Source: Branchiostoma floridae
Lineage: Eukaryota > Chordata > Leptocardii > Amphioxiformes > Branchiostomatidae
Assembly (NCBI RefSeq): GCF_000003815.2
Contig: NC_049984.1
Coordinates: 6,592,715 to 6,656,714 of the forward strand
Length of the DNA: 64,000 nucleotides
Reading direction: 5' to 3'
Position numbers and translations under genes: made by a program. Each line of letters starts with the position of its first letter. Position 1 is the stretch's first letter. The notes below the pieces were generated by a model. The model was not told the DNA's origin, searched no databases, and saw only the letters and a program-made list of their open reading frames with translations. Of the stretch, positions 37,065 through 61,366 are shown in pieces.

Positions 37065-39656
37065 CTTCAGATCGTCTCAAATCCGCCTGTAGAACTAGAA
37101 AAGGGCAACTTTCCGAGGAGGGAACTCCGACTGGGACTTCATGCATGGCGCCATCTTGTTTAATTCCGAATTTTGGTAAAGTTTCTCGGGCATGCGTGGT
37201 GTAAATCATACTAAATGGCCCCTGAGGCGAAAAAAAAGACACAGAACTCCGAAGCCTTGCAGTCTTCACTAGACCGAAACAAGTTTGTCAGCTCAAGAAG
37301 CCGACTTAAACATCCGGGAAATAAACAAAACAACAAGTAGCTCACGCATTGTGATCAAAGTCTTCTTTGCAATTTAAATCACCGCCCACTGGTTTTGCTT
37401 CTGCAGTCCTGTTACAAATCAATAGATGTCGCTATTGAAAGCTGGGTACTCATCACTTCGACATTCAACTGTTCATTTCATCCCGAGAGATGACACTAGT
37501 TTCTCCAGACTCCACCCTAATTTTAGTAACAACGCTGTCTAAAAAATAATAAGCGCAGTAATTCTTAAAGATTACCATGGTGAAGATTGATGGTTACCTA
37601 ATTTGCATGATTCATATATGACACGTAACAAATATGAAATCCACCGGCGTACTATATTTTTCATACAAAGTGGTCCACTGGTCCTCATTCATAGATTGCA
37701 AGTTTTTTAATACTAACGCCAATCTATACACAACGACTTTCACACTTTTGACAACATCACACAAGATATTGTGACATTTTCTCATCAATTGTGCAGAAGT
37801 CTATTTTCATTTGCTAACTTGAAATCAAAGTTCCTAAGTTGTCTATAACGTTACATAAAACAAGTCACATGTTTTAAAGTTCAATCATAGTAAGGAGCAC
37901 GTTTATAAGATTGCCTCATTGGTAATGAAAATTATGCCATTATTGATACGATCAGCATATACAGCATCGTCAATGTCAATTTTCACATCGGCTGCTTACT
38001 AACAAAATATGAACACCTTGATATATTCCTTTTGAACGTCTCTATGAAGTTCTACAAAATATGGTAACGTTAACGTTATACCACTTATTCCCTAGACCAA
38101 AAGCGACTACAAACCCAAAACCTATTACAGTAAGGTCTAATGCAGTACCATAAAATCCGCTAGTTGAACAATACTTTCTTTCACTTACTAACCACATAAC
38201 TTGTTACTTACATACTTGACACCACTTGATACATCCACAGTATTTTCGATTCGCAAGCAAATTAACAATGCCGCATTAAGGTAATGAAGGGAAGTGAATT
38301 TTAATACATTTAAATGCAAGGCAAGTATACTATCATAATCACTTCAGCTACAATATGCAACATGAAGATGGTCGAAATCTAAATAAGTTAATTTGGATTT
38401 TCTTAACTTTTCAGGTCGCTGTGAAATTAAACTACATGTATGGTTTCAAATGCTTGTTCAGGTTGGGATTCTCAAACCTTAATTTCAGCACCAAGAGGCC
38501 ACGTATAGCTTAATAATAGACGTAAAACGAGGACAACAACAACAACAGTTAATCTTGAAACTTGAATCAATACTGTAACGGTTACATGTACAGTCAGGCA
38601 AAAGAATTACATCTCCAACGAGCTACGAGTATTTCCCCACAAAAGACGCTATGTATGAGCGAATCTAATCGCCAACAAACGGCCAGTTACCTTTTCGCAT
38701 ATTTTTCTTAACTCGTCTATGCATGAACGAATTTAATTGCCAACAAACGGCCAGTTACCTTTCAATCCAGACAATCCCATTTGTTGTTTCTTAACTCGTT
38801 GACTATGTATGAACGAATCTAATCGTTTATCGATTGACGTCATTAGACAATCATCGCTGAGCCTGCGCAGTCGTGGTTGGTTCGTATAGAGGCGGCTGCT
38901 GGTGCTAACGTTTTGTTCTTGTTTTCATTCTTTTTTTTGTGTGTGTGTGTTCAGACTAATGCATATTGCATATGTCACAAGAGTTTTTTGCTGTCGTGCC
39001 AAATGCGTGTGTGATACTTTTAGTACATTGAAACGTGAAAAGATCATATAGAAAAACTCACTCATAGTCCAGGTGGATCGGGGTTTGTTGTTGTTTTCAT
39101 TCAAAAGAGTGGAAAAGTAAAATTAAACGTATTTCTATCAGCTTTTTTTACTTCTTTTTTTTTTTTGCTTTCACTAACTCACCACTTATCATATCATGAA
39201 ATCCATCCACATACAAGTTTACTTTTATTCGTTCAGCCCATCCTAACTCTAAGAAAAACTCAACCAAATATCTTGCCAACAGAAAGGCACAATTTGAAAA
39301 GATGCTTGATCATCAAAACTGCAAGTGGAGTTTTCCTTCCAAAAACAATGCTCACGGATAGATAAGCTACAAGTTAGTTTTTGCGCGTCGATTTTTTACA
39401 ATCGTCTGGATTCAAAGAACGTCTAACCGGCTTTTCGTTTTTGGCGACGCCTCAGGGGCTAGCCAAACAGTATAGTAAATGTCCGATTGGCAAAAAAGGG
39501 TTGACGGATCGTCATATTTGAATCTCATCATCTTACATATACTTAGTATTTATATTACCATCAATTGCACAAAGAAAGAAAAAATACATAAAGTATGTGT
39601 CTTGCCACTGAGCAGTATGGCCACAAAAAAATTCTTGCCTCTAATGCTGAATTCTA
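37065..39656. other. Intergenic region with promoter-like and duplicated sequence
   Basis: Between the PLEKHG4-like start and the NHL gene stop. The left 200 bases hold the presumed PLEKHG4-like promoter. The rest to 38,630 is AT-rich with nothing recognised. 38,640-38,890 holds a duplicated, promoter-like block described separately. 38,936-38,950 is a short (GT)n and 39,157-39,167 a poly-T tract. Confidence 0.5.
38640..38890. repeat. Tandem/dispersed duplication carrying a CRE and NRF1-like site
   Basis: About two and a half units of roughly 80 bp share 'aacggccagttacctttt' (or 'cctttc'), 'tcttaactcgt' and 'atgaacgaat'. The same block recurs diverged at 43,500-43,590, upstream of the NHL gene. 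Beside it are a perfect cAMP-response element, TGACGTCA (38,835-38,842), and an NRF1-like CCTGCGCAG (about 38,862-38,870). This looks like a duplicated promoter region. Confidence 0.5.
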
Positions 39657-42600
39657 TTACAAGTGAAAGATGGTGACCGTGTTGTTGCTGGGGTTTGTCA
39701 CCACCAGTTGTCCCTGCGGCCCCACAGCGACGCCCCACGGGTAGTCGATGCCCCCGATGGTGCGGAGAAACTTCCCGCGGGTCGAAAACATGTCCAGCCG
39801 CCCACCTTCGGCGTCAGCTACGATGATGCGACCCCGCCGGCCCGACACGACCGTGCAGTCGCCGCGGGGAGCGCCGAGAGGCTTCCCGAACTTGAACAAG
39901 TGGCGACCGACGCGGACGACGCTTAGTTCAGTGCCCGTGACGAGGATGTCCCCGGCTAGATCCGATGCGACCTGCGAGTCCGCCAGTTCGACTTTCTTCT
40001 AAAAAATGGAATGAAGACCTTTAGTGTACATTTTTTGCCACGTGTACAGTGGGCTGTGTGCAGGTCACAACAAAAGATGTTGAACAGATGCAATTAACAC
40101 ACAAAATGAAAATAACTATCATTATAATTAGATAAACTAAACTTCTCCTTATAGTGGGGATAAAAGATCATGTTACTATGGCTAGCCAAAAGGTAATGCA
40201 AGTGGTTTTATAGCATGACGATTATCTTTATGTAATGATTTGGAATTTGGCACAAAGGTAAAGGCATGTATTTTCTTGTAATTTTTTGAGACTGAAATAT
40301 CTCAAGTATGTTTAACGACGAAAGGTTCATCGTATTGTAGCAGGATTATGAATTTTTATACTGTACTAAATTGTATGAAATAAGGAAGACTGACGAACGA
40401 ACCTTGCCGTCTGGCAGGAGCTGGATAATATCTGTCTGGCCAGCCAAGACGACGCCTTTGCGCCTGTGGACGGCAATGGCAGAACATCGCGACTGTAGGG
40501 TGGCGTATGGTGGGCGTCGGGGAAGCGAGGTCGCTGGCACACCCTGCTGGTTGTACTCTGCTACGTAAGCAGACCCGGGATTGGCGAGACGATCCGTTCC
40601 CAAGACTCTGAGACGGCCATCCTGGGCAATGGTGACATCGCAAGGGAACATTCCCTTTCCTCCGAAAGGTGACACAAACACCGGGAAAACACGGAGAAAA
40701 GCCCCACTCATGTTGAAGACTTGGATTCGTTGGTTTTTGCGATCAGCCACAAAGATCTCGCCGTCGGTAGACACAACGACTCCGAGACTGTCCTTGAACT
40801 TCCCGCGTCCTGATCCCTCTCCACCGAAAACGGTCGTCTGCGTGCCCCCATTTCCACCCTTTGGGCTTTCTGTTGAAGACATCTGCACCTCTCCAGTGGT
40901 GTAGGTAGCATGCCCTGCTGACTGACCAGGACTCACGGTGTAGGTAGCGTACAATGCTGACTGAACAGGAGTGTAGGTTGTGTCAAAAGCCGGCTGACCA
41001 GTGTTGATGGTACTATTCACCGCTTGGTGACCAATGATGTGGGTAGTGTCGGTACCTGATTGCGGCTGTGGATTATATGGAATGTACATTATAATTATTA
41101 CATCTATATACCCCACAAGCATACGTATCGCCTGATATTTTGAGAATACCAACTACAGAACATAACTGAAAATTTGGCCTTTAAATCTGGCCTTTAAAAA
41201 GGTTGGTTCATGATACATGTGATGCGATGTCGTATTTAAAAGTATTTAAGACAACCTTTGGTGTTAAAGATCACCAAAAATATATCTCTTTAGTTGAATA
41301 TTCGTCATGTCGATTCGTCATTAATCATATTCATGTTATGCTGAATAGGTGATAGGTGACAGTTTTGTAGATGTAAATATAGATATAGATATATAGATAT
41401 ATGATTTCCTCCAAAATCTGGATCATATCTTAGAGGTCTCATCGTTGACCTCATCTGATTATCAAGGTCTAACAATAATTGTTTTCTGATATTAATCATG
41501 TTTAAGAGGTCTCAATGATATCTTAAAATTGTCTTCAATGTCTATTAGGGATCCCGTCATAATCTTTCTTCTGGTGATCTCGATAGGCGCCTTTAGATTG
41601 CCAAGCATCCTGTTTCCTGTTGGAATGGTGTCCAATAAACACGCATGGTGACAGAAAGCATGTGCTTACCTTTTTATTGCGGTTAAAGCCGGTAGAAAAG
41701 TAGACGCCGATACAGGCCCAACCGGCGATGAACAACACCAGGAAAACGGTAATCGTGAGACATCCGTATTCTAGACAAAACAAAACACACAAAAGACACA
41801 TTGTGATGAGCATGACCAAAGGTGTTTACGATGTAAACAAACAACTCGTTAACTCAAAGTCAAGGAAAATCAATACATGATGTCATAATACCGTAACTAC
41901 TTGAGAGCACTAAAACCTTCTAAAAAGAATTATGTAAAGCAAAACTACAGACGGCCAAGAACGAAAAATAAACAAGGATACTCATTGGAAGTTTAACAGA
42001 TTAGATACAATGTGATAGTAATAGGCACAAAAGTGCCGCACAATGCCCTTTTAACTTTGTGGCAATACATATTTTGAAAATGTTGAGAGTTAGACGGGCG
42101 TCATATCCATTCAAAAACATCTATACAATCATAATCATGACAGAACCCCTGTTGCAAAAGAAATAAAACTAATCCTTTAAAACAGTTTTACACACTGAAC
42201 TACACCTTACCTTTGTTCTGACCGTACATCGGATTGTCGTGCACCATGACCGGAGGGTGTCCAACATCTTTTGTGGCACTGTTCCCGTCTGAGCGACCTG
42301 GTGCAGGAATGTCATCGCCGATATTTGGAGCCGCTGGAGCTTCTTCATTGCACTGCATTGCTGCCGTATGGCCCGTATCACTCTGTTCCATGTATGCAAC
42401 AGCATAAGGTTGGATATCGACATCGGCGTTGGTGACGATGTCGACCGTTTGTCCGTTCCAAGCTGCAGCGCCGCTGTTTGGGGACATGTTGTCGCCGTTG
42501 CTGCCCCCAAGCTGAGCAGTGCACCGTGGCTGACTGCAGTCGTCGTCGTCAGTTCCCTTATACCGAACAGCGTACGGCTGTATGCAGTCTTCGTTGCCGT

Positions 42601-43249
42601 TTCCCCTATACCGTAAATTATACGACTGGCCGCTGTCGCCGCTGTCGTCGCCATTGCCTCCGTACCGAACAGCGTATGACTGGATGCTGCACGTGTCGTC
42701 ATCACAGTACGCTGTTGGTCCGCAAGCTGGGAGAACATCCTCCATGTCCTCCTGGTGTTGTGTGTCACTGTGGGTTGGACAGGTGACAGTGGAGTCATCT
42801 TCGTCATGTTCTTCCACTTGTGGCTGAATGCTGCAGCCATCGTCCTCACCGCTAGCTGGTTTACAAAGTTTAGGGCCGACACTAACCGGTTTCATCCCAC
42901 TGGTGATGTCGTCATCATCCAGACTCCGGGGTTCCTCGTCTGTGGAGCTTGATTTGTACATCGGATTCGGGTTCTGTTCGTTTCGAGGTCTAGCGGATTC
43001 TGTCGCGGAAAAGTAAGTCGGATTCCTGTTCCGAACGAATTTTCGGTCTGGATGAAACGTGTTGCAGAGGTGGCGAGGGTTATGCGGGATTTCGATCGTT
43101 TCGGCTGCAGGACTACTAATATTTGCGTGCATGTCGCGACTGTCGTAGTCGGCGTCGAGGGTGCCGTCTTCTCTGTTCTCAACAGCAAGCATGCTGCAGG
43201 AGTCATTCTCAGTGTTTGCTTGAAGTTGTGCAGAGTCTTGGTCTTCCAT
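39657..43249 (-). CDS. Type II membrane protein with C-terminal NHL beta-propeller, four exons, 714 aa
   Basis: Exons: 43249-42211, 41770-41670, 41065-40403, 39998-39657. Phases agree and total 2,145 coding bases. Residues 1-346 form an acidic, Asp/Ser-rich tail with three NPxY motifs (NPTY 76, NPMY 95 and 339) and four related motifs (YAVRY 192, YNLRY 210, YAVRY 226, YAVAY 282). A hydrophobic segment follows (about 350-371, LTITVFLVLFIAGWACIGVY), then a Thr/Tyr/Gln-rich stalk with 'ATYT' repeats. From about residue 490 there are roughly six NHL-type blades (GKFKDSLGVVVSTDGEIFVA; YPWGVAVGPQGQLVV). With no signal peptide, the propeller should be extracellular or lumenal. Exon 3 ends at an atypical donor (AAG|GTTCGT); reading through would cut the propeller short. 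NHL repeats usually bind proteins or RNA; the partner here is unknown. Confidence 0.8.
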
Positions 43250-43599
43250 TTTAGCGTCTGGGCGTATCTCACGGTGCCACTCCGTGTGGACAGTCTGAGG
43301 TTCCGCCTGTTGTAACTAAAGCTTGTGTATCACTTCGTCATACATACATATTGATTCAGCATAATTGCAATGCGAGAAGAGAAAGCAGACAATTCCACTA
43401 ATTTCAACATTCAACATAATTGGTTTTTTTAAACAGACACTTGCAATCAGGAACCAAGACTCCCGAAATGAAAATCTAAATGGAAAGATAGAAAAATCCA
43501 ATAAACTGGCCAGTCACCTTTCGACATCAGACAATCGCATTTGTTTCTACTTAACACGTTGAATATGTTTGTCAGTCTGAACGAGTCTAATTAATAACT

Positions 43600-43740
43600 G
43601 AAGCGAGATTTGGATAGTTTCTGCGGCAGGACTATTTTCGTGCATGTCGCAACCATCGTAGTCATCAACTGCGGCGTCTTCTCTGTCCTCATCAGCAAAC
43701 GACTTGTTGCAGGGTCTGTCTTCAACATTGCCGTTAGCTT
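43600..43740 (-). pseudogene. Decayed partial duplicate of NHL-gene exon 1
   Basis: The plus-strand sequence parallels 43,085-43,230, the N-terminal coding part of the intact gene. Shared blocks include 'tttctgcggcaggacta' against 'tttcggctgcaggacta', 'cgtgcatgtcgc', 'tcgtagtc' and 'gtcttctctgt.ctca.cagcaa'. Small indels break the frame. It sits a few hundred bases upstream of the intact gene, next to the duplicated block at 43,500-43,590. Confidence 0.65.
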
Positions 43741-44559
43741 TTGATACTGTCTTATGCTACCGTAGGATCTGCATGGAGATTAGCTCCAACGGGGTCACTT
43801 TTCGTGGAGATCGAGTCACATATTATTAGCTTTCTAACATTAATCAAATGAAAGGATAATCCAGCAGAAAGAAGAAGCCCAAACGACACGACTGTTGCCA
43901 ATATTATTTGTAGCAGAACTGAAAAAAGACAAGGCTTTGAAAGTGAAAGTAAAAGTCAAATATATACTATTGCATGTGTGTTATTATGCCTTTATTTCAG
44001 AAGGAACATTTGGACCAAACACCACACACATCTTCCAGTCGAACACTCTATTAACATTATTGCTTCCAAGAAGATATCTTTCTTCCACTTTTTTACATTC
44101 AAGCACAATCCTTTTTCTAGCTGCAAGGATTTTCTTGCACATACAAGATGAAAACACGGATAGCATTTTACACATAAGCATTGGCACATTAATTACAGCA
44201 ACATCACAAGGGTATGATCTTTCACTTTCATACATTCAAGTAATTGCAGAAACACAGCTTATGAGCAGCACATGTAGACAGGACAGTAACATATACATAT
44301 GCAGGTGAAACACACACTATATTCACATTGCTTTCAGGCAACAAGAAATAAATCAACAGAATACAGTATTTCCACATTTCCTGTACCAAGGAGTTTTTTT
44401 TTACCTCCTTGCCTGTACATACAGGTTTCAAAATGATAAAGTCTTCTTAAGTTTGTTTTTGTCTGAATACAGTCACTGAAGTAAAGAGGCCATTGCAAGG
44501 AATGTTAAGTCAAAACTGGCCAAGAAGACCACTACAGTAACCAATAAAACCTGCCCTAT

Positions 44560-45947: not shown

Positions 45948-48900
45948 TCAGACTCTGTTTTCTTGTTGAGTTTCTACTTCTGTAGGTCTGAGCACGAACA
46001 CAGCATCGTGCAGGATGTAGTACGGGTGGTACAAGTCTCCCTCGCAGAGGTACGGCAGGCGCGAGAAGGTCTCCACCTCGAAGCCGCTGGGCGTGAGCAC
46101 CTGCTCCACAAAACTGTTGGCCTGCAGCTCCCAGCCCTTCCCCTCCACAGGCAGCACTTCCGACGGGTCCACCAGCTTAGATCCTGTAAAATAACATTCA
46201 CATTACGTGTGTATATCATATACAGATTTGATTTTGCGGTAGTGGGAAAACGGAGTAAACGTTCATACCCTGTATATATCATATACATGTAGATATATAA
46301 AATCCACATAAGTTTCTGAAAAAGGAACATAAGTCGTTCCTTTCAAGAAGTAAATGAAGAAGTCTCAATGAGTCATCTTATCAGCAAGTCCTTCATAGGA
46401 CTAGGAAAAAATGAGAAATGATGTCTATACTCCTATCAATAAGTGTGGTGGGTTCTCACATATACATACAGTTTGTATACAAAGTATATAAAATAAGAAA
46501 TGATGTCCATACTACTGGTGTGACTCTTCTAAAATACAGGACCTCCAGCTTTATGGTCTGAGAGTATAATGTATCTCTTATCAAAGCTAGGTACTCATTT
46601 TCACCAAGTGCCTTTCCAAAATGCGTGTCTCACTAGCGCCCCCTACCTGACTCCACACACGGACTGAACGGCAGCACCACAGCGAGGATCAGGTGTCCGT
46701 CTGGCGAGAGTGAGCGTCGGATGTCCTCCAGGACCGAACGCGGTTTGTCGCACCTGTCCAGCAGGTTCAGACAACTGATGAGGTCGTAGGTTAAACCGGA
46801 CTGCGGTGTCGGCCACTCCTCTATGTCGAGTAACCTGGGATTGGGGGACAATAGAAGTCAGTTTCTCACCGTAGAATAAGTTTGCTGGAAAACAACAAGA
46901 TCCTTTATACAAGAATTTAAACAAAATATACACACTACTACAGTTCAAAGCTTGGGAAGCTTTTAAAACGCTCTCTGTCCCTTTATCAACCTGGTAGATC
47001 TCATCTTGGATTTTCATTGTCAACTGACTGATGATAGACATTGTCACGTGACAAGACACAGTCATAAACAGATTCTTCATGAAAACAACAAATAAAAAAA
47101 TGTACCCAACTGCAGCAAACCCCCATTTCAAAAGATGAATGTCATGCCAAAGACTTAAAGAAATACAATTTAGTACATTTTGCTTAGCATCCAGCACTTA
47201 TTTTAGAAGAAAGAGTATAGTATGAAGTAGAGCACACACCACTAACCCTGCAGACAAAAAGATGTTGAACGGATTTCAATTTTGTCCAGATATATGATAG
47301 ATATATATATACTGATATATGACCTGGTTCTCATATAGATCTCATGACACTTGCCTGGTACAAAGAAGCATTGCAGTCCATATTGATCAAGAGACCATGA
47401 TCATGTCTCTCCCCCAGTAAACAACTTACCTGTACCCCCTCTCCTGTAACCTTTCTCGCATGGGGGGAGACTGCTCCGTAACAAAAACCTCCTGGAAGTG
47501 GCCTGACATGATCCTCGTGACATTACCGTCCCCCGCACCCAGGTCCAGAAGCCGCTCGGCCTGCAAAATAAAAAGAATTTAAGAAAAAAATATTTTCCCA
47601 TCTTTACAACGCTTTCATCTGCCCCAGTTCCCTGTAGCAGTGCCTCCTAGCAGAGAGGGAAGTACTGCTGTGTCTTTATTTAAAGTTGGAGACAGCCCGG
47701 CATGTTTAGTTTATACCATGTATTAAAGTGTAGCGGGGTCTGGGTTGGTTAGGTATGTTACAAGACTTGCACTAGTTAGACTAGCAAACCAAGTCATGCA
47801 CAGGTGGACTCTAGATGAACTACAGGTAGACCATCAAGAGGGACCTCCAAGCAGTCAACATTAACTGGAAGGATGTGAAGAGGATGGCTGTCGACAGTGC
47901 TAGCTCTGCCAACCTGACCGCCCCAAATGCCGGTAACACAGGAGCTCCTAATATTGTAACTCTAAGCCATAGAAATAAGCTTGCAGTTGCTGCCTACCTG
48001 CCAGCCAGGTGCGATCCTCATGAGTTTGTAGAAATGTTGTTGTGAGAAGACGAACATGGAACCCCGCCCCAGCCAGCTGAAGGGAGAAACGTGGATCTCA
48101 TCACTGCACAGTAAAAACCAGAGTGCTACTGTAACAGTGGGGGGTTGAAGTAGTGCTAACTGACCATGCCAAACGCCTGTCAGGCTTTTGGCTCAGTCAT
48201 TTAGGCTGCTGGTCTTGTGATCTTGAGGACCCGGGTTCGATCTCCGGGTCTGTCAGGATATTTGTATATAGTTTATTTCTGTTCTACTCGCCCCTCTGAC
48301 TTCTTACACTACAAGCATATATGTTACTGTTAGGATAGACATTTGTTGTCTTTTGTATGATATCCTCCTGACATTATACAGCTAGTTAACTGAGAAAAAA
48401 TTACAGAAAATGATTTTGTTTGTTTTGTCCTTTTTGGGGCTAAAAAAAGGAAAAGAAATATGGATTTTATTGTAAACAATGATACGTCTAGTTTGCAATA
48501 CATCAAGCTACACAGACCAAAAAAAGTCATCCCTTTAAGAACCTGGCACCCATAGGGTATCAACATATGTAGCAACCTCAATATTAAAGATCAAATTTGA
48601 TTCTCATAATAACTGCAGTTCCACATACAATACTACCCTACAAAACAAAACATAAAAAAAATAAGCATGTCAGATGCTGTATCATTTTCCATGCATCCTC
48701 TCCCTGGATTTTGTCCCATCCCCCTACTCACCCATTGATGGAAGTGACAGACACAAACATGCTGAGCAGGGTGGAGACCACAGAGTGGAAGATCTGGGTG
48801 AAGACCCAGTCTGACTTCTCACGACTGCCCTGCAGGAATTCCTCTGTCTCTGTGTCGAAGTGCAGCGGGAGGTACTTGGGCTGGAGGGTCTCACTGAGAA

Positions 48901-49865
48901 GGCTCACATCACAGGTATACCACTGGAAGAGAATTACATGATTTCTGTGTGTCAGAGTGCAGCAGGCTGAAATTGGCTGGGTAGTTTCACTTTAATATGA
49001 AATGGTTCATATCACAAGAATACCACTGAAAAGAGAAACACATGTTTTATTCTTCCTTGTTTTCTTTCTTTTGCTTTTTTTCTTTCTCTGACTAGAGATT
49101 TCATCCTCTTCTTCCTTCCTGATGACTTTCTCATTCCATCCTTCCTGACATTTCTGTTTCTGTGTCACCTGTAGTAGAAGGAACTTGGGCTAGAAGATCT
49201 TGCTCAGCAAACTGAATTCCATCATTGTGACATTCTACAATAACATCTCACTATTGTTATGCCAATCTCGACACTGTTAGAGACACGAAATGTTTACAAG
49301 TCAGCGGCCTTCATCTTTGACATATAATTCACAATTCCTGTTTGTGCACAAGTGTACTCGGAAGTGTGAAAGAGCTTATACTGGAAGGGGGAGGGGGGCT
49401 CACCCATAAACTCTCACGTCATCTTTCTTCAACAAGAAGAAGACTTGGTCTTCAAAAGCATGGAAAGCTGCAACTAGAAGGTCCTTCCATAATATGTGGG
49501 GAGCGTAGTATATATTTTGCATGTGTCAAAAACGAAAATGGGAGGGGCACACCCTGCAAAGTTCTATAAACCTCCTTGCTGGAACTTTTAACTCATCTAA
49601 CTCTCTTTTTGCCACATTTTCTGCAATAAGCAAACTTAGTATTGAAATTAAAATGATAAAAAGGAGCCCCAACACAGCTTTTCAAATACTTTCAGTAAGG
49701 AGTAGTTTTTTAAAAGGTGCTTGTGTAAAAAGACTGAGGGGGAGGGGGGCAGCTCACCTCCTCGTAACGCGTGTCCCTCAGCTCCTCCTCTATCTCGGCC
49801 TGCCTGACGGCCTGCATGTACAGGGAGCGCGCCAGCGGGTTGCGGATGTGGCTACTGGACCACAT
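45948..49865 (-). CDS. METTL9: METTL9 (DREV) protein-histidine N1-methyltransferase, complete, six exons, 319 aa
   Basis: Exons: 49865-49758, 48922-48732, 48103-47998, 47560-47430, 46834-46647, 46183-45948; total 960 bases, all with GT-AG borders and matching phases. The protein runs MWSSSHIRNPLARSLYMQAV, then EKSDWVFTQIFHSVVSTLLS, GRGSMFVFSQQHFYKLM, the SAM-binding motif I RLLDLGAGDGNVTRIMS, the post-I segment VFVTEQS, YDLISCLNLLDRCDKPRSVL and a C-terminus FSRLPYLCEGDLYHPYYIL. It parallels human METTL9 (318 aa) throughout, including the DREV region. METTL9 is a seven-beta-strand enzyme that makes 1-methylhistidine in His-x-His motifs, in vertebrates on zinc-transporter, mitochondrial and other proteins. 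The start is the first ATG after an in-frame TAG. Introns 3 and 4 (counted from the 5' end, with intron 2 at 48,104-48,731) are short; 47,561-47,997 holds a LINE tail. Confidence 0.95.
47836..47940 (+). mobile_element. Non-LTR retrotransposon fragment (C-terminal end of ORF2)
   Basis: The plus strand, antisense within a METTL9 intron, encodes KRDLQAVNINWKDVKRMAVD then SASSANLTAPNA. This is the common extreme C-terminus of LINE reverse-transcriptase ORFs (DL.A..I.W.D.K.MA.DRASWR.LTA). The expected RASW is degenerate and the flanks are out of frame, so it is an inactive remnant. Confidence 0.75.
48187..48257 (+). repeat. tRNA-like sequence (SINE head or decayed tRNA)
   Basis: An A-box-like 'tggctcagtcatttaggc' and a B-box-like 'gggttcgatctcc' are spaced as in a tRNA. 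The T arm pairs (gacccgg / ccgggtc), and the anticodon region is 'ggtcttgtgatct'. The acceptor stem ends are not complementary, so a functional tRNA is unlikely. It lies in METTL9 intron 48,104-48,731. Confidence 0.55.
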
Positions 49866-56444: not shown

Positions 56445-59400
56445 TCAGCTCCCTTCCACTCGGGGTCTCTTCTCCTCCGGCGGTCCATTTTCGTTATCGC
56501 CTAGCAACGGTCCTATGGACGGACCGTCTGTTTTCCTACTGTCTGTTGCTTCGCTGCTCTTCTCTGCTGCTTCCTGACTCGCCGCGGAGTGGGGTAAAGT
56601 AGAAGTACTTGGCTTTGGTGTGCTAGTAGAAGTAGTATTAGAAGTGTTTGCATGTCCGGCGGCCGCCGCTACGGGGGCGGCGCCTTTTGCCTCTCTAGAC
56701 TTTGCTGTACCATTGTCGATGCTACGTTCTCTTCCGTCTTTTTCGCTCTGCTTTTCTGGTGGAGTGTATTTGGCTGCGTTGGTCTTGTGGGCGGGCGAAC
56801 GCAGGTGGCCGTCAAGCTGCTCCTCCCCAGTGAAGCGCTCGGAGCACGCCGCGCAACGGTACTCGTCCTCGTAGACGCGTACCAGGGTTTCCTCGCTATC
56901 GAACGTGCGGCCGAAGTAACAGAAGGTCTGCTGGTGACCGATGGCGGATTCCTCGTCGGGGAACACCATCTGACATTTCTTACAGATGAATTTGCAACGA
57001 TGGCACTTGGTTACGCACGGGTGGCCGGGCAGGGCAGACACGGACCCCGCTTTATGACCCTCCTGTTTCTTATCTTCCTTCTCGGCCGAAGACGTCTTAC
57101 AGGAGAGGTCCTTGGGAGCGTGTGGCGACATGAGTTCTTGCAGGGCCTGGGCAGAGTACTGTTGGAGCATGGGAGAAGTGATGTCCCCGAGAGCGGTACC
57201 CTGAAGGGACACGGGGATGTCGTAAGGGAAGAAACTCTGGGCCCCGGCGGCCCCGGCCCCGTACATCTGGTGCAGGTAGGCCCCCTGCATGCTGGCCAGC
57301 TGCTGCAGGTAGTACGGAGGCAGCGTGCCCATGTAGTACGGCAAGAAGGCGGAACTGCCTGCCGACAGAGAGTCGTGAGCACTGATGGGGCTCTGTCCGA
57401 AGCCCGGGAGGGGCATGCTAGATTCGGATGTCTCCACTTTCTCCTCTTTCACCTTCACCTCCTTCTCTTTGCTTTGGTTTTCGGTGCTCGGGCTGCTGAG
57501 TTTGGGCGAGGTGCTCTCGCTGGTGCCTGTCTGCTGCCCCAGCCCCATGAAGGCCATGGGGCTGAGCGGGTGGAGGGTGTGAAACGCAGATCCCGGCATC
57601 TGCATCATGGGTGAGGCGCCCATCATCGCGGCCTGCTGGTGCACGGCTAGTGCTTCATTCGCCTGGCGCAGGCGCTCAAGGCCCTGCTGCTGGAACATGC
57701 GCTGCATCGCCGTGGGGTCTACGTACTCCTTCTCCTTGGCCAACTGCTCGGAGTAGTAGCTCTTCAGCTTTCCGATGTGCTGCTGGGTGAAGATGTGGTC
57801 GCGGACAGACAGCTTGGCGGAGTATTTCACCCCGCAGAGCGTGCACTCTTCCTTGGGTTTGTCGAACTGTCCGGGGGGATAGTGTTTCCCAAGTGCCAGC
57901 TTGGACTTCTTGTCTTTGGCACGTGCATTTTGGAACCAGACCTGGACCACACGCTTCGGCAGTCCGATTTCGTTGCCCAGGATTTCGCACTCTTGCATGG
58001 TCGGGGTCTTGTACTCGGTGAAGGCGGACTTCAGCATTTTCAGCTGCAGGTTGGACATCTGCGTGCGGTAGCGCTTGCCCGGCAGGTGCTTGTTGCTAGG
58101 AGACTGGGGATCGCAGGTGGACGACTCCTCACTCCTCCCAACACTCCCAGCATCCGAGTGTATGTCTTCCTCTAAAGTGTAGCTGAAGTTGTGAGAACCG
58201 TCTTCGTCTGAGTTGATGCTCTCTGCCACGTCATGTTGGGACATGCCTTCTATCGAGGGGGAGATCAGCTCCTTATTAGAGCCCATTGTGTCGTCCCCCA
58301 TGCTACTGCAGGAGGCTGTGGACTCGTTGAGAAGGCCTGGCAGCTCTACTTTAACCTTATTCAGCGATTGCGACTCCATGTCTTCGGACTGAGCATGATT
58401 GCTCATCAGGGAGTTTTCTCCGTTCTGCTGTTGAGCGGAGGTGGACGGCTGGTCATTTTTGTCGTCGTCTTTCTCCTTTTTGATGGCTGCGAACCGAGCC
58501 AGCATCTTCTCAGCCGAAGGGAAGCTGTTGTCCCGAGGGCTGGACTGGTTCTCTGGCTTCTTGCTGTGATGATGGTGGTCGGAGTGGGAGTCGTCTGGGT
58601 GGTGAGACATTGAGGCCGCTTTTGCAAGCTCTGCGTCTGTGACTGTCTCGGAGCTCTGGATGATTGCCTCGACAGACTTGTTACTGCTGATGAGCTCGAC
58701 CCAGTGGCGGGATTTGATGTGGGCGTCGAGCGCCGTCTTCGCTTTGAACATGGCGCGACAGAAGGGACAACGCTTGTGTGTCAGGGAGGGTCCCGTGACC
58801 CGAAACTGCCCCTTGCGCTCGCGTGCCCGTGTATTCTGGAACCAGACCTGCACCACTCGCTTCTTCAGCCCGACCTCCCTCGCGATCAGGTCCAGCATCT
58901 TCCTGGTTGGGTTGCAGTCGATCTGGTACTTCTGGTACAGGATCTCCAGCTGCTCGGGCGTGATCGTCGTGCGGAGACGCTTGTTGCCCTCGCGCGGAGA
59001 ATCCTGGTCGGGAGAGCTCAGAGACAGCTGCCCGTCCTGGGACAAACCTTTCCCGTCCTCCATCTCCGAGTGTTTACGCTTCGAGGAGGACGTTTCCCCG
59101 AGAGACTGGGGTAAGAGCGGGCTCGCCCCAGCGGCTGCCATCATCTGATGAGCCGCGAGCTGGTCGAGTGCGTAGGGCATGTACATCATGTAGGGGCTGT
59201 CCATGAGCGGCGAGGGGAAGAAGGGAGCGTACGGAGACAGGAAGTGAACCTTCTGGTGCTCCCTCCACAGGTCGAAGGTTGGGAAAGCCAGGTTGCACTT
59301 GTCGCACTGGTAGTGCATGAGGTGTTGGGAGGGGGGCGGCGGCGGTGGCATGGCAGCCGGGAACTTGATTTCCTTTTTGTCGGATTTTGCCTCTTTCCCC

Positions 59401-60200
59401 TCCAGCCTTTCCTTCAGGTCTGTGGGTGTCTTACTGTCGTTGCTGCTGGTGCTCTCCGCGCCGCTGCTCTCTGCAGCATAACACTCCTGCTTCTGGTGTT
59501 TCATCAGGTCGAAGAAGCGAGGAAAGACGGACTGGCACTTCTTGCACTGGTAGTTCAGGCCGGGCGTGCGCTGATAGCGACTCTCGTCCACACTGTCAGT
59601 GGTGCGAGGGCTGGTCGGCTGATTCTCGAAGCTCTTTCGAGCCTTCTGGCGGGCATTCTGGAACCAGACCACAATGACACGCGGGCTGAGGTTGAGGATC
59701 TTGGAGAGATGCTCCAAGTCGTCATCTTTAGGGTAGGCGTTCTGTTCGAAGAACTCCTGCAGGACTTTGATCTGGTAGTCGGTGAATCGGGTTCTCCCTG
59801 CTCGTCGGGCCGTGCGCTCCGCTTCTGCCTTACGCTGCTCCTCCTGTATCTGCGCCTGGGTCGCGGTTGCCGCGGTGACGGGCGGATTCACGACAGGCGT
59901 CGTCATCGGTGCCACCTTCTCAGCAGACGACGGCGCTGGAGACTTCATGGCGGTCAGGTTTTTGGCGTCCTCGGGGAGCGGCGTGGACGGGGGATTGTTG
60001 AAGTTGTAGGGCGAGTCCTTGTTGCGCTGGCGCTCCTTGAACAGGGTGTTGCGGAACCAGTGCTTGATGACCTTGGTGGGAAGGCCGGACTTCTCCGACA
60101 TCTCCAGGATCTGGTCCTCGCTCGGGGAGTTGTTGATGTCGAAGTGAGCGCGCAGGATCTTCAGCTGCTCATCCGTGATGCGGGTGCGAGGACGCTTGCC
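56445..60200 (-). CDS. zfhx: zfhx3/4-like zinc-finger homeobox protein, terminal exon with four homeodomains (1,251 residues)
   Basis: Acceptor ttgtccttctcag at 60,201; open in phase 0 to a stop at 56,445. By exon residue: homeodomain 1 at 1-60 (GKRPRTRITDEQLKILR; WFRN), homeodomain 2 at 132-190 (GRTRFTDYQIKVL; WFQN), C2H2 fingers at 217-240 and 297-320, homeodomain 3 at 406-465 (RLRTTITPEQLEILYQKY), a finger at 477-499 (CPFCRAMFKAKTALDAHI), homeodomain 4 at 708-767 (RYRTQMSNLQLKMLKSAF), a finger near 783-808 (CTLCGVKYSAKLSVRDHI), and two C-terminal fingers near CKKCQMVFPDEES and CAACSERFTGEEQ. Order and sequence match vertebrate ZFHX3 (ATBF1) and ZFHX4, nuclear transcription factors of neurons and muscle. 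Acidic/Ser linkers include a sumoylation-type VKVE. One gene here suggests the pre-duplication state. Confidence 0.95.
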   Translation of the reverse strand, partial: GKRPRTRITDEQLKILRAHFDINNSPSEDQILEMSEKSGLPTKVIKHWFRNTLFKERQRNKDSPYNFNNPPSTPLPEDAKNLTAMKSPAPSSAEKVAPMTTPVVNPPVTAATATQAQIQEEQRKAEAERTARRAGRTRFTDYQIKVLQEFFEQNAYPKDDDLEHLSKILNLSPRVIVVWFQNARQKARKSFENQPTSPRTTDSVDESRYQRTPGLNYQCKKCQSVFPRFFDLMKHQKQECYAAESSGAESTSSNDSKTPTDLKERLEGKEAKSDKKEIKFPAAMPPPPPPSQHLMHYQCDKCNLAFPTFDLWREHQKVHFLSPYAPFFPSPLMDSPYMMYMPYALDQLAAHQMMAAAGASPLLPQSLGETSSSKRKHSEMEDGKGLSQDGQLSLSSPDQDSPREGNKRLRTTITPEQLEILYQKYQIDCNPTRKMLDLIAREVGLKKRVVQVWFQNTRARERKGQFRVTGPSLTHKRCPFCRAMFKAKTALDAHIKSRHWVELISSNKSVEAIIQSSETVTDAELAKAASMSHHPDDSHSDHHHHSKKPENQSSPRDNSFPSAEKMLARFAAIKKEKDDDKNDQPSTSAQQQNGENSLMSNHAQSEDMESQSLNKVKVELPGLLNESTASCSSMGDDTMGSNKELISPSIEGMSQHDVAESINSDEDGSHNFSYTLEEDIHSDAGSVGRSEESSTCDPQSPSNKHLPGKRYRTQMSNLQLKMLKSAFTEYKTPTMQECEILGNEIGLPKRVVQVWFQNARAKDKKSKLALGKHYPPGQFDKPKEECTLCGVKYSAKLSVRDHIFTQQHIGKLKSYYSEQLAKEKEYVDPTAMQRMFQQQGLERLRQANEALAVHQQAAMMGASPMMQMPGSAFHTLHPLSPMAFMGLGQQTGTSESTSPKLSSPSTENQSKEKEVKVKEEKVETSESSMPLPGFGQSPISAHDSLSAGSSAFLPYYMGTLPPYYLQQLASMQGAYLHQMYGAGAAGAQSFFPYDIPVSLQGTALGDITSPMLQQYSAQALQELMSPHAPKDLSCKTSSAEKEDKKQEGHKAGSVSALPGHPCVTKCHRCKFICKKCQMVFPDEESAIGHQQTFCYFGRTFDSEETLVRVYEDEYRCAACSERFTGEEQLDGHLRSPAHKTNAAKYTPPEKQSEKDGRERSIDNGTAKSREAKGAAPVAAAAGHANTSNTTSTSTPKPSTSTLPHSAASQEAAEKSSEATDSRKTDGPSIGPLLGDNENGPPEEKRPRVEGS

Positions 60201-61366
60201 CTGAGAAGGACAAAAAAAAGACTGTGAGCAACTGAAGGCTGAACGAGTTAAAGACATTTCTGAAAACACCTGACAATAAAAAAACCTAACACTCACTCAC
60301 ACACTCACTCTCCGGTTTAACGTCTAACAATTAACGTCCAACAACTAACAATTCTAAGGATGTCTGCCATGAGAAGGACAAAAAAAACATTTATTAATAA
60401 CATTTCTGAAAAACCTGTAGAGACTTGTAAATAAGCCAAAAGAAAAAAAAGGCTTGTAAAGTTGAATCTAGTCAATCATATCTCTGCCGTGTACAATATG
60501 AATTGCAATGTATTTGTAATTGTCAAGCTTCAATGTCATTTGCCATTGTCATTGTATTATGTATCATTGGAATGCTTGTACATTATCCTTGACAATGGTA
60601 CTTATTTTGGGACATCAATAATCACTGACAATTCTTAACAGCTAATAACCTAAGTCTCCTATTCATACAACCTATGACAGTATGCCATAGTGTAAGTTAC
60701 TTCAACCAAGCTTTCATAAAAGGTCCTGGGCACAACCCACACCAGCAATAAAATAGTTAAAAGCACCAATATATCTATACACAAAACTGTAAGTAAATGA
60801 GTAAAAGAAAATGGCATTTCTTTCTTCTAACACAAATCTACGAAATGAATAGAATTTAAAAAAAAATCTTTGAAGCAACCCCTCTCCCAACCTCCACCTA
60901 ATATTTAAAGGTGGTGCTGTAACCTTATATAATACAAGGGTGGATGAAATTTTGCTCAAACTGAGCAAATTTTCTGGGGATTACAATTCCATTATGCCTT
61001 ATGTCTAGGAAAAAGTTAGCATGCCAACCTTATCAGAAACCTGACAACCCTCACATTATTTTTTTTTGGTCGCCCACCAGTCTGGTCTTACTTGCTGTAC
61101 ACAACTGGTGTGTTACACCTAAAGGCAGTTTACCAGTTATGCAAAGCAAATAAAAAAGCATTACGCCAAGTAGCAATTACTCAAACAGCTGAATATGATT
61201 TTGGAAACGATCAGACATTTCAGGTAGAATGCAGTGATGAAAGGTAGTGGATGTTTCCAAAATCATATCCAATTGTTTAAGTGACTGCTATTTGTCATAT
61301 CTTATAACCCCCTGGATGTCTAACCTAACGTAAACAAGCATCATTCCATTGCAAGGCTGTGCCTAC
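60201..61366 (-). other. zfhx intron before the homeodomain exon
   Basis: AT-rich; a short (CACT)n-like tract at about 60,289-60,310. Nothing else recognised. Confidence 0.6.

Follow-up and report, generated by a model that had tools for sequence, protein, structure and literature searches.

Organization of the locus

The window, a stretch of 64,000 nucleotides, carries on its minus strand a gene whose four exons (43249-42211, 41770-41670, 41065-40403, and 39998-39657) yield an open protein of 714 residues in the spliced model. Exon phases match (1/1, 0/0, and 0/0), the introns are GT-AG, and the frame is free of stops. Exon 1 (42211..43249, minus strand) provides the start codon and an acidic tail of 346 residues and is open from the ATG to a GT donor (AAAG/GTAAGG), so that the interval in which the first-pass annotation had seen a tyrosine-rich tail proves to be exactly one coding exon. 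Exon 2 (41670..41770, minus strand), entered in phase 1 and left in phase 0, holds the membrane span, which hydropathy places at about 41697-41759. Exon 3 (40403..41065, minus strand) encodes a Ser/Thr stalk (41065-40844) and the first half of an NHL region, and exon 4 (39657..39998, minus strand) encodes the second half and the stop codon. The order of domains is acidic tail (346 residues), span (residues 351-371), Ser/Thr stalk, and NHL region, with a net charge of -41 over residues 1-347 and of +11 in the propeller. The span is the sole hydrophobic segment, its best Kyte-Doolittle 19-mer scoring 2.43, compared with 1.32 for the best elsewhere and -0.27 for the best near the N-terminus. AATAAA or ATTAAA occurs twice on the gene strand from 43300 to 38900, once in coding exon 2 and once about 430 bases past the stop. 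The assembled sequence supports the four exons as one gene with one span.

Just upstream of the gene lies a decayed duplicate of the beginning of the tail exon (43607..43744, minus strand), with 49% protein identity to that exon (49 columns) and 75% DNA identity (105 columns), the DNA alignment having gaps of 3 and 6 bases. We rejected 43744-43607 as an alternative first exon, because it lacks an in-frame ATG and an in-frame stop is present downstream. Beside the gene are DREV/METTL9-type methyltransferase exons (46633-48991, minus strand; Pfam DREV), and farther along, at 56445-60296 on the minus strand, a single long frame combines four homeodomain stretches with C2H2 zinc fingers, which we take to resemble ZFHX3/4. 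At 38670-38785 and 43495-43545 on the minus strand, short stretches that resemble each other and contain ACTGGCC and TTGG were noticed by eye; they are perhaps a mobile repeat.

The NHL region

In the C-terminal 368 residues, Pfam NHL matches in three stretches with an E value of 2e-15 and 56.4 bits against a cut-off of 20, and six blades can be parsed by eye. Single-sequence AlphaFold models of exons 3 and 4, made apart, were poor (mean pLDDT 35 and 55) and consisted mostly of strands. By sequence, the closest solved domains are those of Thin (E 1.8e-39) and TRIM71 (E 1.2e-32), scores that add up over repeats, while against teneurin-like PDB chains the window propeller reaches only 4e-4 to 6e-4. 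With E values up to 10, Pfam found NHL, DUF5128, and KOW alone in the C-terminal 368 residues and no EGF, FN-plug, or YD shell; as the 714-residue model also leaves no room for it, the EGF/FN-plug/YD shell of teneurins appears to be absent. Neither the tail nor the rest of the protein has a Pfam match to RING or B-box, and membership in the TRIM proteins was rejected for this reason. On the features tested, the window protein belongs with neither the teneurins nor the TRIM proteins.

Tyrosine motifs in the tail

Seven tyrosine motifs are spread along the tail, all on the minus strand. Two NPxY motifs, NPTY (residues 76-79; 43013..43024) and NPMY (residues 95-98; 42956..42967), are followed by four YxxxY units, namely, YAVRY (residues 192-196; 42662..42676), a degenerate YNLRY (residues 210-214; 42608..42622), a second YAVRY (residues 226-230; 42560..42574), and YAVAY (residues 282-286; 42392..42406), and by a membrane-proximal NPMY (residues 339-342; 42224..42235). 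The tyrosines of all seven motifs are kept in the closest paralog, and the last NPMY before the donor recurs in the paralog tails L015, L017, L019-L021, and L023-L025. Among 20,000 composition-preserving shuffles of the tail, none reached three NPxY, 12 reached four YxxxY, and none reached four Y[AN][VL]xY. Together with the spliced model and hydropathy, these counts bear out the claim of the first-pass annotation that three NPxY and four YxxxY motifs lie in an acidic tail N-terminal to one span. Between the four window units, synonymous differences exceed nonsynonymous ones (pS 0.68, pN 0.24, from six non-independent pairs).

The further suggestion that such a tail recruits PTB-domain or clathrin adaptors fared less well. 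Apart from (F/Y)XNPX(Y/F), the motif names and consensus forms against which we compared it, YxxPhi, ITAM, and ITIM, are those in general use. The window tail contains no (F/Y)xNPx(Y/F); its three NPxY motifs all lack that aromatic residue, and position Y-5 is hydrophobic in none of them. It likewise has no YxxPhi, ITAM, or ITIM consensus.

A multigene family

With the tail as query, the 513-Mb genome gave 14 matches, comprising the window gene, three matches that form a single gene on C4, and ten others; viral contigs gave none. Besides the window gene, the genome thus has 11 paralog loci. An NHL region lies downstream on the same strand in ten of the 11, as identified by Pfam in four (L015, L019/L026, L020, and L024, all of which match) and by tblastn only in the other six. 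A span exon entered in phase 1 and left in phase 0 was modelled in ten as well, L023 having only a weak hydrophobic match. The combination of motif tail, span, and NHL repeats, for which the first-pass annotation had proposed a genome search, therefore does recur. The NHL link is weakest for L019, since about 9.5 kb separate its tail exon from the downstream NHL region, which falls in the adjoining piece L026, and at L021 no NHL region was matched within the 30 kb read. Two tail exons in tandem, of about 670 residues, are present at L021, where N[TS]TY..GQS repeats form the stalk. Pfam TEN_NHL appears below cut-off in two paralogs (L020, E 0.008; L045, E 5e-4). As far as sequence comparison goes, the window gene belongs to a multigene family with conserved motifs.

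The closest paralog, L015, encodes 832 residues and has the same exon phases as the window gene. Between the two, motif tyrosines are kept in 11 of 11 cases and other tail tyrosines in none of two, and identity is 35/40 for motif residues and 160/306 for the rest of the tail (Fisher p 1.3e-5), in an alignment that repeats make ambiguous in part, the NPxY sites less so. The dN/dS ratio is only moderately low for the tail, at 0.64, and is 0.51 for the propeller.

Across 13 tails (the window gene and the 11 loci, with L021 entered twice), 65 units give the consensus I-[Q/E]-P-Y-A-V-x-Y, in a scan that counts tyrosines towards the match. When the scan did not require the first tyrosine, it was present in 59 of 60 units; the second tyrosine is found in 48 of 59, the alanine in 48 of 48, and the proline in 56 of 59. 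As the other positions are equally well kept, the unit appears to be conserved as a whole and not for its tyrosine alone. Such uniformity would suit a fast-spreading disordered repeat without a reader, kept alike by recent duplication and gene conversion, as would the variation in unit number, from two to eight per tail, and the His that replaces Tyr in several units of the LRR proteins described below. We nevertheless regard this explanation as very unlikely, given the synonymous excess between the window units and the contrast between motif and non-motif residues and tyrosines in the L015 pair.

The same tails bear on whether the tyrosine motifs are clathrin-adaptor endocytic signals, and the protein a scavenger-type uptake receptor, with no part in phosphosignaling. 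The three NPxY motifs of the window tail fit such a role, as does the occurrence of at least one NPxY in ten of the 13 tails (L016, L018, and L022 have none). The form (F/Y)xNPx(Y/F), on the other hand, occurs in none of the 13. In each of the 65 units, the +3 position counted from the first tyrosine is occupied by Arg, Ala, Ser, Lys, Gly, Thr, or Gln, and since this residue is never bulky and hydrophobic, the units are not YxxPhi signals; YxxPhi outside the units is limited to two of the 13 tails. An endocytic role thus seems to us distinctly unlikely. The ITIM pattern [SVIL]xYxx[VIL] is present in one of the 13 tails (L015).

The unit in type I LRR proteins

Genome-wide, the PYAVxY codon pattern occurs at 734 places, compared with 104 for the reversed control. 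One hundred of the 734 places were listed, and 53 of those listed fall into 16 clusters, defined by same strand and neighbors within 2 kb. Among the places listed, ten clusters are LRR-type (L029, L030, L031, L035, L036, L038, L042, L043, L046, and L047), four are NHL by Pfam (L015, L019, L039, and L040, the NHL of the last two being in L044 and L045), and two are unclear (L037 and L041). Pfam LRR_8 was found in eight of the LRR-type clusters (L029-L031, L035, L036, L038, L042, and L046); L043, which is partly masked, is a putative LRR-type cluster, and L047, a piece that starts late and has no Pfam match, resembles L031 by eye in its span and tail. For nine of the ten LRR-type clusters, the motif follows a span within one reading frame, and a start that by eye is like a signal peptide was present in all three LRR genes read further upstream (L029, L030, and L031). 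These comparisons show I-[Q/E]-P-Y-A-V-x-Y to be common to the NHL proteins and to the C-terminal tails of what we predict to be type I LRR proteins.

Some copies of the motif are irregular. L030 is a disrupted LRR-type gene with PYAV units, its tail running by eye into a retroelement-like frame and its span being unclear. In the LRR tails L042 and L046, many units read QPHAVTH or QPYSVTH instead of QPYAVxY, and the His in place of Tyr makes strict constraint in these arrays doubtful. An identical 18-mer, CCCTACGCCGTCCGGTAT, makes up ten of the 100 places listed, with single copies on several contigs, and is possibly a repeated element.

Topology

The first-pass annotation had the NHL propeller facing outward, an orientation that we favor on balance. 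In the window copy, flanking charges run opposite to that orientation (N15 -1, C10 +2), with the positive charges on the propeller side. In the paralogs with a modelled span exon, by contrast, the N side of the span is the more positive in eight of ten, the exceptions being L019 and L022, in a table where some C flanks end early at an exon border. The tandem array in the L021 stalk holds 8 N-glycosylation sequons in 127 residues against 3.4 expected, the maximum of 2,000 shuffles also being 8; the propellers of 11 sequences contain 26 sequons where 18.5 are expected, only a mild enrichment, and the window tail itself has three.

Taken the other way, with the N-terminus out, the tail would face the lumen or the cell exterior, and the NHL propeller, like that of TRIM-NHL proteins, would lie in the cytosol as a membrane-tethered RNA- or protein-binding propeller. 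The charges of the window copy speak for this orientation, as do those of two of the ten paralogs, the propeller's net charge, and its best solved relatives, which are of TRIM-NHL type by scores that add over repeats. We consider it unlikely, since a hydrophobic N-terminus is absent, eight of ten paralogs have the opposite charge pattern, the L021 stalk has its sequon array, and the motif is C-terminal to the span in the LRR proteins. The signal-peptide-like starts of L029, L030, and L031 make it most likely that the LRR motif tails are inside, and if they are, the common motif favors the same placement for the NHL tails. A tail inside and an NHL region outside is therefore the best reading, from which we infer both topology and surface location. 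The gene product is thus probably displayed at the cell surface, with the propeller on the outside and a tail bearing a repeated tyrosine motif on the inside.

Discussion

What is new here is a conserved tyrosine unit common to predicted receptor classes of opposite orientation. Taken as a whole, the data make it reasonably probable, in our judgment, that the window protein is a type II phosphotyrosine-signaling receptor of a multigene family. In such a receptor, the tail would be cytoplasmic, and the stalk and NHL propeller would lie outside; binding or clustering of the propeller would lead to phosphorylation of tyrosines in the I-[Q/E]-P-Y-A-V-x-Y units and NPxY motifs, and the phosphorylated tyrosines would recruit SH2- or PTB-type readers. 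We infer the phosphorylation, the reader, and the ligand of the NHL receptor. Several observations weaken the proposal, among them that the window tail has no standard phosphotyrosine consensus and that the tyrosine is no better kept than its neighbors in the unit. The three tails devoid of NPxY, the LRR units with His, the only moderately low dN/dS of the tail, and the absence of an NHL match at L021 weigh on the same side.

The type I LRR receptors would use the same I-[Q/E]-P-Y-A-V-x-Y unit, and because the unit is common to both, the NHL and LRR classes may feed one reader. Its presence in a second, unrelated receptor class of the same genome suggests a private signaling code. More tentatively, and with somewhat less than even confidence, we propose that the unit is a lineage-specific immunoreceptor-like motif, used by many genes in the N-terminal tails of type II NHL proteins and the C-terminal tails of type I LRR proteins, that it has a dedicated phosphotyrosine-binding partner, and that it forms the lineage's own counterpart of ITAM and ITIM. 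If this is true, a tyrosine code common to two unrelated invertebrate receptor classes would be a separate case of the role that ITAM and ITIM play in vertebrate immunity. The eight-residue peptide would then be a direct handle on the reader and, through the reader, on what the orphan NHL and LRR receptors bind as ligands.

In the open-access literature, no paper contains IQPYAV, PYAVAY, YAVAYM, or QPYAVR, and no title joining Branchiostoma or amphioxus with NHL concerns such a receptor. The accessible parts of PMC3503706, PMC5851990, and PMC3137616 likewise describe none.

Comparison with known receptors places the window protein beside several systems without merging it with any tested here. 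ITAM and ITIM receptors set a precedent, in that unrelated ectodomains draw on one short tyrosine motif, but unlike them the window tail has neither consensus. Amphioxus C-type lectins may carry similar tails. APMAP-type proteins have a type II span, a six-bladed propeller, and a short tail without tyrosine arrays; set beside them on these general features, the window protein is alike in its putative type II span and its predicted propeller and differs in its tyrosine-rich tail. Of the NHL domains with solved structures, those nearest in sequence are of the TRIM-NHL type (Thin, TRIM71, TRIM2/3, and Brat), yet the window protein, unlike these, combines a span with a tyrosine tail and shows no match to RING or B-box. 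LDLR/LRP1 and CED-1 are type I proteins. According to PMC11228867, the NPxY tails of LDLR/LRP1 and CED-1 bind PTB adaptors, with (F/Y)XNPX(Y/F) as the form, and carry (F/Y)xNPxY and YxxPhi signals; the window tail, which likewise has NPxY motifs, differs from these in lacking both signals.

The nearest precedent for the arrangement is found in teneurins, which, according to PMC5851990, are type II single-pass proteins with an intracellular N-terminal domain and an exposed extracellular six-bladed NHL propeller. A tail inside and an NHL propeller outside are hence not unprecedented, and the assertion in the first-pass annotation that no receptor of this arrangement had been described was too strong. 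Like teneurins, the window protein has the order N-terminal tail, span, and NHL, in what we take to be the same topology; unlike them, its stalk and NHL region make up the whole of its C-terminal part.
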